Assembly (NCBI GenBank): GCA_009695095.1
Contig: SIBQ01000022.1
Location: forward strand, 1-39,729
Length of the DNA: 39,729 bases
Reading direction: 5' to 3'
Source: Lacunisphaera sp.
Lineage (GTDB): Bacteria; Verrucomicrobiota; Verrucomicrobiia; Opitutales; Opitutaceae
A program made the translations under genes and the position numbers. The notes beneath the pieces were generated by a model. That model was not told the origin of the DNA, made no database searches, and worked only from the letters and a program-made list of their open reading frames with translations. Positions 34,927-38,303 of this stretch are shown in pieces. The number at the start of each line of letters is the position of its first letter. The first letter of the stretch is position 1.

Positions 34927-35057
34927 GCCGGGTAGTGGCACAGTTTGTCATTGCGAGGAGCCCGCGAAGCGGGCGACAAAGCAATCCATCTAGCTGGATC
35001 GCCACGCCCGGCTGCGCCGGGCTTGCGATGACAAGACAAACCATACCACTACCCGGC
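34927..35057. repeat. 131-bp nested inverted repeat, MITE-like
   Basis: Outer arms of 23 bp (34927-34949, beginning GCCGGGTAGTGG; 35035-35057, ending CCACTACCCGGC) are complementary with three mismatches. Inside are a second pair (GTCATTGCGAG and CTTGCGATGAC), paired CCCGC/GCGGG and CCCGG/CCGGG stems and a central AATCCA-TCTAGC-TGGATC. The whole element could fold into one long cruciform or RNA hairpin. The inner part resembles the TCATTGCGAG...GCAATCCA palindromes scattered in many bacterial genomes. It sits between two divergent genes, upstream of dnaX. No coding capacity. Confidence 0.75.
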
Positions 35058-35129: not shown

Positions 35130-36256
<1,127 letters not shown>

Positions 36257-36272
<16 letters not shown>

Positions 36273-36294
36273 CGGCAGCGCCTGAGGGCGCTGC
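36257..36294 (+). promoter_or_regulatory. Putative programmed -1 frameshift / slippage signal of dnaX
   Basis: A run of nine A (36257-36265) lies just before the zero-frame TGA (36270-36272). A perfect 8-bp stem follows (GCAGCGCC 36275-36282, loop TGAG, GGCGCTGC 36287-36294), 9 nt after the run. A purine-rich GAGGA lies about 8 nt upstream of the run and could act as an internal Shine-Dalgarno stimulator. These are the same three parts as in the E. coli dnaX signal; the A9 run also matches the slippage run of Thermus dnaX. Confidence 0.75.
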
Positions 36295-36616
36295 AGCGAC
36301 AGGCGATAAGCCAAAAGCTTTAAGCAAAAACACTGAAGAGGAGGAGAGTGCGCCAGCGGCTCTCATGGCCGATGCACCAGCCGGACCGTCTTCAGAGGAG
36401 GAAGCCGCGTTTCTGGCACAGGACCAAACAGGTGAATCCGCATCTCGCCCCTCGTTTCTCGCCTCAGGCCCGGAGGAGAAGGACCTGCCGGACCTTCCTC
36501 CTCTCGAAGACCTGGTGAAACGGATCCCGGCCTCCACTCGGGCTTTGATGGAAGAGCTGCTTCGCACCCGGTTTGTCACGGTGAAGCGTGTGCCCAAGAC
36601 CGCGCTCAAGTCGTAG
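36263..36616 (+). CDS. dnaX: Tau-specific C-terminal extension of DnaX (-1 frame)
   Basis: In the -1 frame the sequence is open from the A run to a TAG at 36614-36616, adding 117 residues and giving a tau-like product of about 495 aa. The extension begins [18 protein letters not shown], has an acidic, alanine/serine/proline-rich linker, and ends with [20 protein letters not shown] and [19 protein letters not shown], a plausible folded helical tip. E. coli tau uses its extension to contact the polymerase and DnaB; this one is shorter and not similar by eye. An ATG inside it at 36365 could give a separate small protein, but the open stretch reaching back exactly to the slippery run favours the fusion. 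Confidence 0.75.
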
Positions 36617-38185
36617 TCATTCCTTCCAGACCGGGCCGATGGCCGGGTGGCCTTCGAGGCTGCGGAGGTAAAGGTAGGTCTGGGCCGGTTCGTCGGCGAA
36701 GGGCGGGGTGAGTTGAAGGGACACGCGTTCGTAGTGCGCCTCGGCCACGCTTTCGAGCTGGTCGAGTTCTGCGAGGCAGGCGGAGTCCACCGCCCAGACT
36801 TCGCCGGCAACGTCATTGCTGGGGTCGGTGGAACGCACCATGCCGGGATGGTTGCCGAGGGAATAAAGGGTGTAGCCGGCCGGGGTGCGGCCCTCGCCGA
36901 GAAATTGCTGGCCCGCGAGGTGAGGGTGATTGCGGTAGCCGCGCTTCAGCGTGCCGTAGACAAAAACCCGGGTCAGGGCGGCGGGGGCAAGTGCCTCGAC
37001 CACCAGCGCGGTGATGTTGTCCCGGCCGGCGCGTTCCAGCGCCGCGTTCAGGAGTCGCGTCGCCACCGGGACGGAGTCGGGCGCCCGGACGATTTCCTCG
37101 AGCTGGTGGTCCCGCAGGCCGTCGGTTAGGCCGTCGGAACAGAGCAGGAAGCGATCGCCCGGCGCGCAGGGGAGCACGCCGAATTGCGGCTCGATGAACT
37201 GGTGCCCGGCGCCGAGCGCCTGGTGCAGCACGTTGCGCATGGGGTGCGAGCGGGCCTCCCGTTCGGTGAGCTGGCCGCTGCGCCGCAGCCAGCCGACATG
37301 ACTCTGATCGTGGGTAAGCTGGCGCATGCCGTCCGCCTGCGGCAGATGGTAGATGCGGCTGTCGCCGATGTGGCCGAAATACATCCAGCCGGGCGTGAAC
37401 CAGGAGAGGCTGAGCGTGGTGCCCATGCCCCGGCATTCCTCGTAGGACTCGCCGAGTTTCATCAGGTCGTAGTGGATCGCGTGGAACAGCTCGTGCAGCA
37501 CGTCCACGAAGCCGCTGCCCGGGCCGGGCGCGGCCCGGCGAAAACCCCTCGGCAACAGGTGCGTGATCTTGTCCGCGGTGATGCGGCTGGCAAATTCGCC
37601 GGAATTGGCGCCGCCCATGCCGTCGCTGACGGCAAATACGAAGTCCGTCTTCGTCGCCGAGCCCTCGCCGGTCTTGCCGAGATAGCGGACTTCGCGGCCG
37701 TCAAACTCGAGGGCGAGAAAGGTGTCCTCGTTGTTCGGGCGGACATGCCCCCGGTGGGTCAGGCCGGACCACTGGAGGGTGGGGGACGGGGGCGCCGCGC
37801 CGGCGGCGGATTCGGCGAGCAGCGTGGCGAACTCGAAATCAATGATGCAAAACCGCCCGTCGGTCCGCCGGTAGGTGATATTGCGGATATCCGGATCGTC
37901 GTGGCGCACGACGAAGGCCTCGAGCTCGGCGAACAGCTCCTTCAGGCGTTCCGGGCCGACCTGGTCGACGCGCGAGCCGCAGTTGGTCGTGACAATCTTA
38001 AGGCCGGCCTCGTCCACGTCGAGGAGGCGGGGCACGAAGTCGCAGCCGCGCCGCTCTAGGTGGCGGAGCACCCGCACCTCGTTCTCGAACCGGGCGAACG
38101 CCTGTGCCCCCCGGAAGGTCTTGTGGACCCGCCCGTCGTAGCCGATGCGGACCAAGGCGCGCTTGGTGTCTTTGATCTCGTGCAT
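36617..38185 (-). CDS. Three-domain protein: kinase-like, PP2C phosphatase, gamma-glutamylcyclotransferase
   Basis: A 522-aa soluble protein. Residues 1-130 form a minimal protein-kinase-like fold: Lys22 (HKTFRG), Glu34/36 helix (FENEVRVLRHL), catalytic loop HDDPDIRN (His95, Asp97, Asn102) and IIDFE (Asp116). Residues 138-400 are a complete PP2C: NNEDTF (Glu153, Asp154), SDGMGG (Asp188), GTTLSLSW, GHIGDSRIYHL, CSDGLTDG (Asp351), GRDNITALVVE (Asp389). Residues 405-522 are an AIG2-like cyclotransferase: VFVYGTLKRG (409-418), GYTLYSL, VAGEVWAV, LDQLESV, YER. The start is ATG 38185; an upstream ATG would run through a proline-rich leader and the divergent promoter. It abuts tau end to end. Ser/Thr signalling coupled to gamma-glutamyl metabolism is suggested but unproven. 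Confidence 0.88.
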   Translation of the reverse strand: MHEIKDTKRALVRIGYDGRVHKTFRGAQAFARFENEVRVLRHLERRGCDFVPRLLDVDEAGLKIVTTNCGSRVDQVGPERLKELFAELEAFVVRHDDPDIRNITYRRTDGRFCIIDFEFATLLAESAAGAAPPSPTLQWSGLTHRGHVRPNNEDTFLALEFDGREVRYLGKTGEGSATKTDFVFAVSDGMGGANSGEFASRITADKITHLLPRGFRRAAPGPGSGFVDVLHELFHAIHYDLMKLGESYEECRGMGTTLSLSWFTPGWMYFGHIGDSRIYHLPQADGMRQLTHDQSHVGWLRRSGQLTEREARSHPMRNVLHQALGAGHQFIEPQFGVLPCAPGDRFLLCSDGLTDGLRDHQLEEIVRAPDSVPVATRLLNAALERAGRDNITALVVEALAPAALTRVFVYGTLKRGYRNHPHLAGQQFLGEGRTPAGYTLYSLGNHPGMVRSTDPSNDVAGEVWAVDSACLAELDQLESVAEAHYERVSLQLTPPFADEPAQTYLYLRSLEGHPAIGPVWKE

Positions 38186-38287
38186 GATGATGCCCCCCAC
38201 GCTTTGCCGGGCGGGGGGCGGTGGCAAGGGGCGAGTGGCGTCCGTCCGCCCGGCGGATCTGGCATAAACTGAAAATGGGCTTTCCTC

Positions 38288-38303
38288 TGGCATGTAAGGT
38301 GCT
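38288..38303 (+). promoter_or_regulatory. Candidate sigma-54 promoter of glutamine synthetase
   Basis: TGGCATGTAAGGTGCT has GG and GC exactly 12 bp apart as in the -24/-12 consensus TGGCAC-N5-TTGCA, with two mismatches. It ends 40 bp before the ATG. Glutamine synthetase genes are a classic sigma-54/NtrC target in Gram-negative bacteria. Confidence 0.55.

Follow-up and report, generated by a model that had tools for sequence, protein, structure and literature searches.

Probable transcriptional realignment at a conserved adenine run in dnaX of Opitutales, with the tau tail in any of three frames

Slippage at a run of nine adenines (A9) in the dnaX gene of Thermus thermophilus was reportedly described by Larsen et al. 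in 2000. A reversed-polarity form of dnaX carrying poly-A has been described by Antonov et al. (2013) for 17 genes from 12 genera, nine of them with a run of ten adenines (A10), and the criterion for transcriptional realignment in that study is that the direction of the shift is not kept among orthologues (PMC3711429). The main text names Chlorobium and Chloroherpeton for this cluster and does not name Opitutus, and an Opitutales gene may be among the nine A10 genes of its Supplementary Figure S3 (PMC3711429). Reversed-polarity dnaX is also taken up by Atkins et al. (2016), who suggest a possible association between the presence of two lysine tRNAs and slippage in Thermus (PMC5009743). Our literature searches on dnaX slippage and frameshifting, judged by title or abstract opening, returned no publication on recoding of dnaX in Opitutales.

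The locus considered here lies in a 39,729-nucleotide stretch of a contig of Lacunisphaera sp. (hereafter, the window). The closest named records come from Lacunisphaera sp. and further Opitutaceae metagenome assemblies, at identities of 90% or lower, which places the window in Opitutaceae, order Opitutales, Verrucomicrobiota. The zero-frame open reading frame of dnaX (35130-36272, forward strand, starting at the ATG at 35130) encodes a short, gamma-like clamp-loader subunit of 380 amino acids. Its product matches the Pfam families DNA_pol3_delta2, DNAX_ATPase_lid, and DNA_pol3_gamma3, and scores 425 bits against NCBIfam TIGR02397 dnaX_nterm (cut-off 250), which confirms the AAA+ clamp-loader N-terminal region; PDB chains named DNA polymerase III tau/gamma match the same region at E ~1e-76. 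The end of the zero frame reads TCA AAA AAA AAC GAC TGA, in which the stop codon TGA (36270-36272) ends the short product, its first base being the fifth after the last A of an A9 run at 36257-36265, with 4 nucleotides between. The -1 frame continues as a tau tail at 36266-36616, with 116 codons after the run (117 by another count) and a TAG stop at 36614-36616. A reading of the sequence alone had pointed to this A run, the stop codon, an 8-bp stem-loop 9 nucleotides downstream, an upstream GAGGA, and the open -1 frame as a programmed dnaX signal, with the zero frame giving the short gamma-like product and the shift giving tau. Every one of these elements lies where it had been placed, and the proposed assignment of the two products is supported by the comparisons described below, in which it recurs among relatives. 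We note two neighboring features: A reading frame on the reverse strand (36617-38293), tail to tail with dnaX, combines a PP2C-type phosphatase with a GGACT (AIG2-like) domain, and a palindromic, REP-like stretch lies upstream of dnaX at 34947-35040, the 31-base core of which has no second copy in the assembled genome at up to 3 mismatches.

The run at the frame junction is the sole A9 or T9 in the window, where 0.10 would be expected, and at least one such run arose in 8 of 100 shuffled versions of the window. The assembled genome (2.14 Mb) contains four A9/T9 runs, that in dnaX included. Another of these (C18:27173-27181, L256) falls within an open frame of 685 codons with a peptidase M20 domain. 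In dnaX genes of the family, AAA makes up 28% of the lysine codons upstream, and the run is nevertheless pure A. The last six adenines and the base that follows form the heptamer A_AAA_AAC (36260-36266), a possible secondary ribosomal slip site that stands in phase and fits the X_XXY_YYZ pattern of E. coli-type -1 ribosomal frameshifting. Lysine tRNAs with anticodons UUU and CUU are both encoded in this genome, as they are in a single-contig genome of the same genus (G013).

Taken together with the comparisons that follow, these features lead us to propose, at a probability of roughly 0.82, that dnaX supplies two clamp-loader subunits through programmed transcriptional realignment, that is, RNA polymerase slippage, at the A9 run. 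Faithful transcripts would be translated up to the TGA at 36270 and yield the gamma-like protein of 380 residues, while transcripts with one extra A (or others of the same phase, such as those with two fewer) would carry the ribosome into the -1 frame and yield tau, some 496 residues long and equipped with both a linker and the conserved motif at its C-terminus. Third-phase transcripts would be expected to end at the TGA at 36283, giving another short product. We infer from the sequence comparisons that the polymerase is the agent; the ratio of the products and the roles of tau and gamma are likewise presumed.

The -1 tail evolves as a protein under purifying selection, as judged from substitution patterns in a set of 24 genus-like members, of which 23 have tau in -1 and one, L019, is discussed below. 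Over 91 gapless codons of the tail, pN/pS is 0.45, compared with 1.07 and 1.93 in the other two frames, and over the C-terminal 45 codons it is 0.31, compared with 1.08 and 2.85. The C-terminal part holds a motif (36494-36613 in the window, about 32-40 residues in Opitutales) that is conserved in homologues; the tail as a whole, which in tau is the part that binds the polymerase and helicase, has no match here in Pfam, NCBIfam, or the PDB, and the motif belongs to no named family there. When a profile of this motif was built from 20 same-genus tails, the frame in which it was found agreed with the frame predicted from the run in all 76 run-bearing loci with a match (these 20 included), with no decoy matches; after one iteration agreement extended to 101 of 101 loci, with 2 decoys. 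Further iteration drifted (10 decoy matches in rounds 4 and 5), and rounds 0 and 1 alone were used. The tail profile matched none of 47 loci from other orders of the class. In members of the family with A10 and tau in -1, similarity starts right behind the run, with an xL[ITMV] start in 28 of 30.

To place the run in a wider context, we classified 172 dnaX loci from 171 Opitutales genomes. Fifty-three of these loci are all of the full dnaX matches from a search of 57 genomes, and 119 were taken from the matches listed among 253 (at 1e-60) in 273 genomes of the order. Distant families with small genomes are under-sampled (one locus for f7 and none for f2 and f25-f28). Seven further listed loci of f19 were classified later and stand outside the tallies, tests, and tree, as do 80 named loci that overlap the sampled genomes in the case of the tallies, three of which were used in the stem-pairing test described below. 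Except for the count of changes on the tree, the statistics take no account of relatedness among these loci. For comparison outside the order, we used 47 loci from other orders of the class, 7 given and 40 picked by hand from the list of matches.

A run of 9 to 13 adenines occupies this site in 163 of the 172 Opitutales loci (A9 in 54, A10 in 103, A11 in 4, and A12 and A13 in one each); two loci have A8, and the run is absent in seven, one of which is a contig end. All seven of the additional f19 loci have A9, with tau in the zero frame. The kept homopolymer of eight or nine or more adenines that is expected of transcriptional realignment is therefore present in 163/172 and 7/7 loci. Within the window's own family, Opitutaceae, A9 or more is found in 58 of 59 loci, the 59th ending at a contig edge. 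No run occurs near this site in any of the 47 loci from other orders of the class; two of them have an A9 far from it, at codon 553 in one and codon 260 in the other, and the zero-frame products of all 47 have at least 442 residues. As far as these sequences tell, the A run is characteristic of Opitutales and not exclusive to the order. Five loci outside Opitutales (L101-L104 and L116) carry an A9 between codons 405 and 414 and encode tau in the zero frame; by their record titles, L101-L104 are from Verrucomicrobiales or Akkermansiaceae, with one from Porticoccaceae, and L116 is from Verrucomicrobiales. These are perhaps an independent, Thermus-like case of slippage.

The frame in which the tail is found is variable across the order. 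Of the 161 loci to which a tau frame could be assigned, 107 encode tau in -1, 32 in the zero frame, and 22 in +1 (the remaining 11 of the 172 comprise six with no run, two with A8, two that are unclear, and one contig end). When these assignments are placed on a tree computed from 362 N-terminal residues of dnaX (quick method, LG+G4), no fewer than 17 changes are needed. The site has thus evolved in a frame-neutral manner, and the direction of the shift is not kept among orthologues, as the criterion of Antonov and colleagues for realignment would have it; nor is it fixed at -1, as an E. coli-type ribosomal frameshift would demand, given the 22 loci with tau in +1. Within several clades the direction is uniform: tau lies in -1 in 27 of 28 loci of f11 (the remaining one lacks the run) and in 12 of 12 assemblies of the window's family that consist of one or two contigs, and in +1 in all four loci of f16 and all three of f22. 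The tau frames of f19 and f20 are mixed. Cephaloticoccus primus (L073), a named strain of Opitutaceae, has A10 and tau in -1. An annotation that follows the zero frame would give the short product at 129 of these 161 loci with an assigned frame.

We compared ten pairs of loci for run length, polarity, and tail identity, bearing in mind that many of the assemblies are fragmented and that a difference of one A in them may be an error. Four of the ten pairs differ by one A and in polarity while retaining tails that are 58-84% identical: L019 (A10, zero frame) and L017 (A9, -1) at 84%, L229 (A10, +1) and L242 (A9, zero) at 73%, L172 (A9, zero) and L183 (A10, +1) at 59%, and L164 (A11, -1) and L178 (A10, +1) at 58%. 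One further pair, L158 (A10, -1) and L159 (A12, zero), differs by two A's at 79% tail identity. Two pairs with a one-A difference have diverged tails (L231/L247 at 31% and L222/L192 at 25%), two have different polarities although their runs are equally long (L192/L205 and L227/L235), and in one (L202/L220) polarity is unchanged. The clade-wide +1 directions of f16 and f22 are less exposed to assembly error than such pairs.

The frames that do not lead to tau are mostly closed shortly after the run. In counts that ignore shared ancestry, 106 of the 107 loci with tau in -1 have a zero-frame stop within 10 codons (as against 30% at control positions in the same tails), and 103 of them have a +1 stop over the same distance (control 34%). 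For tau in +1, the zero frame is closed in 21 of 22 (control 38%) and the -1 frame in 19 of 22 (control 22%). Loci with zero-frame tau have an early stop in +1 in 31 of 32 cases (control 25%) and in -1 in 24 of 32 (control 41%), the latter being the weakest case of closure in what is otherwise the Thermus pattern of both wrong frames ending near the run. In the window, the third frame is closed by a +1-frame TGA at 36283-36285, within the hairpin loop, and a +1 stop stands at a constant offset in the 26 members of the family with A9 (TGA in 21, TAG in 4, TAA in 1). Closure of the +1 frame speaks for slippage, because a -1 ribosomal shift never enters it.

The stem-loop of the window (36275-36294) has perfectly complementary arms at 36275-36282 and 36287-36294 around a TGAG loop, and the 45 nucleotides after the run have a folding energy of -21.5 kcal/mol (z -3.6); it is perhaps an auxiliary stimulator. 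When each locus was tested separately, counting a stem as above control if it equaled or exceeded the best 5% of control windows, such stems were found in 17 of 161 loci order-wide, and in 8 of the 26 family members with A9 as compared with 9 of the 135 others (binomial P 2.7e-5 for the 8 of 26, uncorrected for relatedness). These eight are seven same-genus loci and L137; the others are in f8 (3/6), f24 (2/7), f1 with A10 or more (3/32), and f3 (1/2). Stems above control occur in 15 of 107 loci with tau in -1 and 2 of 54 otherwise (Fisher P 0.057). Folding energies and best-stem scores are only slightly shifted relative to control windows (mean energy percentile 0.41 order-wide and 0.33 in the family members with A9). 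In a test of fixed-position pairing in 30 sequences, permutation of the 3' arm gave a borderline P of 0.059, and six of the 30 (L001, L006, L008, L011, L022, and L024) have differing stem sequences that pair at 7 or 8 of the 8 positions. With these tests showing a slight or local signal, we rejected conservation of the hairpin across the order. Matches to a Shine-Dalgarno sequence, of which the GAGGA at 36246-36250 is the one in the window, are not enriched in relatives (2.81 vs. 2.70 in controls over the 161 loci, and 2.21 vs. 2.63 in the family). The conserved 3' stem and upstream Shine-Dalgarno sequence of E. coli-type frameshifting are thus not a feature of the order.

These results bear directly on what the sequence-only reading had suggested without choosing a mechanism, namely that the hairpin favors the ribosome and the long A run the polymerase. 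The polymerase is favored by the comparison, because the A run is constant, the direction of the shift variable, and the wrong frames mostly closed. The hairpin and the GAGGA as pointers to the ribosome fared less well, since neither is kept in the order and neither provides general evidence, although the hairpin is enriched in the family members with A9. Run, hairpin, and -1 frame, whose joint conservation had been put forward as a check, do not travel together: the run is kept (163/172), the hairpin is not, and the -1 frame is used in 107 loci and other frames elsewhere. It had also been anticipated that a relative with one A more and a single frame would argue for a homopolymer error. Among 21 same-genus loci, 20 have A9 with tau in -1, and one, L019, has A10 with tau in the zero frame and matches that description. 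We do not regard L019 as refuting the proposal, given the purifying selection on the -1 tail and the recurrence of one-A polarity swaps elsewhere.

A competing explanation is that tau is produced mainly by programmed -1 ribosomal frameshifting at A_AAA_AAC, aided by the stem-loop and GAGGA and thus using E. coli-like parts in reversed polarity. Every one of those parts is present in the window, including the hairpin at z -3.6; that hairpin is enriched in the family members with A9 and somewhat commoner with tau in -1, which is the commonest arrangement and also one that a -1 ribosomal shift would serve. However, six A's would suffice for the heptamer, yet the run stays at nine or ten; early stops occur in +1, a frame that such a shift would never enter; and 18 of the 26 family members with A9 have no hairpin above control, nor is there any Shine-Dalgarno enrichment. 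By itself, a -1 ribosomal shift gives no access to tau where the tail is in +1 (22 loci), whereas gain or loss of A's by the polymerase accommodates each of the three arrangements, and we consider ribosomal frameshifting an unlikely main source. A locus that does resemble a ribosomal case is L176 (f21; G196:C2:91327-93348), the sole genome of its genus in the sample, which is without a long run and has only A6 within an in-phase A_AAA_AAC, GGGAG upstream, and a long bulged stem (-15.9 kcal/mol) 7 nucleotides past the heptamer, with the tau motif in -1. It looks like an E. coli-type site, which makes ribosomal shifting at this position seem possible within the order and is to be read as a lead only. 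Compatible with polymerase slippage, and in fact a sub-case of it, is a dual use of the site, in which slippage would supply most of the tau and the hairpin and A_AAA_AAC would possibly add some -1 ribosomal frameshifting in the window's genus, tuning the ratio. The enrichment of hairpins and the differing stems that still pair in 6 of 30 sequences suggest as much, but the permutation result is borderline, stems are absent in most of the 30, and the region is GC-rich; we regard this refinement as conceivable but doubtful.

Explanations that do without recoding fare worse. Were the run a phase-variable switch acting through slippage in replication, cells and not transcripts would differ; L019 amid its A9 relatives, and the other single-A pairs, would fit such a switch, but several clades show a single run length and a single polarity, tau is in -1 in every one of the 12 family assemblies of one or two contigs, and on/off switching of a replication subunit would be odd, all of which makes it very improbable. 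We hold it equally hard to credit that the tail is a separate, unfused protein made by re-initiation. The tail does contain internal Met codons, at residues 34 and 95 of 116, but re-initiation is disfavored because protein-level similarity sets in immediately behind the run (28 of 30 family members with A10 and tau in -1) and because the fusion is encoded outright in relatives whose tau occupies the zero frame. A sequencing error or a decayed gene, for which the homopolymer itself speaks and nothing more, was rejected on the recurrence of the run at the same site in 163 of 172 loci and on the purifying selection acting on the -1 tail, and we give it practically no weight.

Returning to polymerase slippage, we tentatively suggest a broader picture for Opitutales, one that we think somewhat less probable than not, in which selection keeps the A run and not the frame. 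Because slippage would fill all three phases, the tau frame could drift among -1, 0, and +1 by single-A changes, and which product is the "standard" one would be nearly neutral. The window's genus (with the run and, in part, the hairpin) might then represent an intermediate, and L176 (with the run lost and a heptamer, stem, and purine element in place) an end point, in the replacement of polymerase slippage by ribosomal frameshifting at one and the same site. What had been a handful of known cases would become an order-wide natural experiment, in which a slippery run is kept and the long product lies in any frame. This suggests that selection favors a tau-gamma mixture and not any particular frame, and sequence alone here separates polymerase slippage from ribosomal frameshifting.

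Among described systems, the two-ORF dnaX genes of Antonov et al. (2013) are the most like the window, with a short zero-frame product, tau made by -1 recoding, poly-A, and a proposed transcriptional realignment (PMC3711429). The hallmarks of that cluster, a gamma stop in the zero frame beside poly-A and an extended -1 frame that encodes a conserved tail, are all found here; in contrast, the 17 genes of the cluster have -1 shifts only (PMC3711429), and Opitutales have zero-frame and +1 forms as well. The Thermus thermophilus gene resembles the window in its A9, the closure of both wrong frames nearby, the two lysine tRNAs, and the two products, but has tau in the zero frame and gamma as the product of slippage, so that the window is reversed with respect to it (PMC5009743, PMC1088944); in polarity, the 32 Opitutales loci with zero-frame tau agree with Thermus. 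The E. coli gene shares with the window an adenine-rich heptamer, an upstream Shine-Dalgarno-like sequence, and a 3' stem-loop, but the window differs in having A_AAA_AAC instead of A_AAA_AAG, reversed polarity, and two lysine tRNAs, and its relatives differ in that the accessory elements are not kept and nine or more A's are (PMC5009743, PMC3711429). In Shigella mxiE, a gene unrelated to dnaX, slippage is likewise required for the longer product (PMC1088944). The two-product arrangement of dnaX is itself already known; what is new here, as far as we have seen, is the order-wide, frame-neutral evolution of the site.
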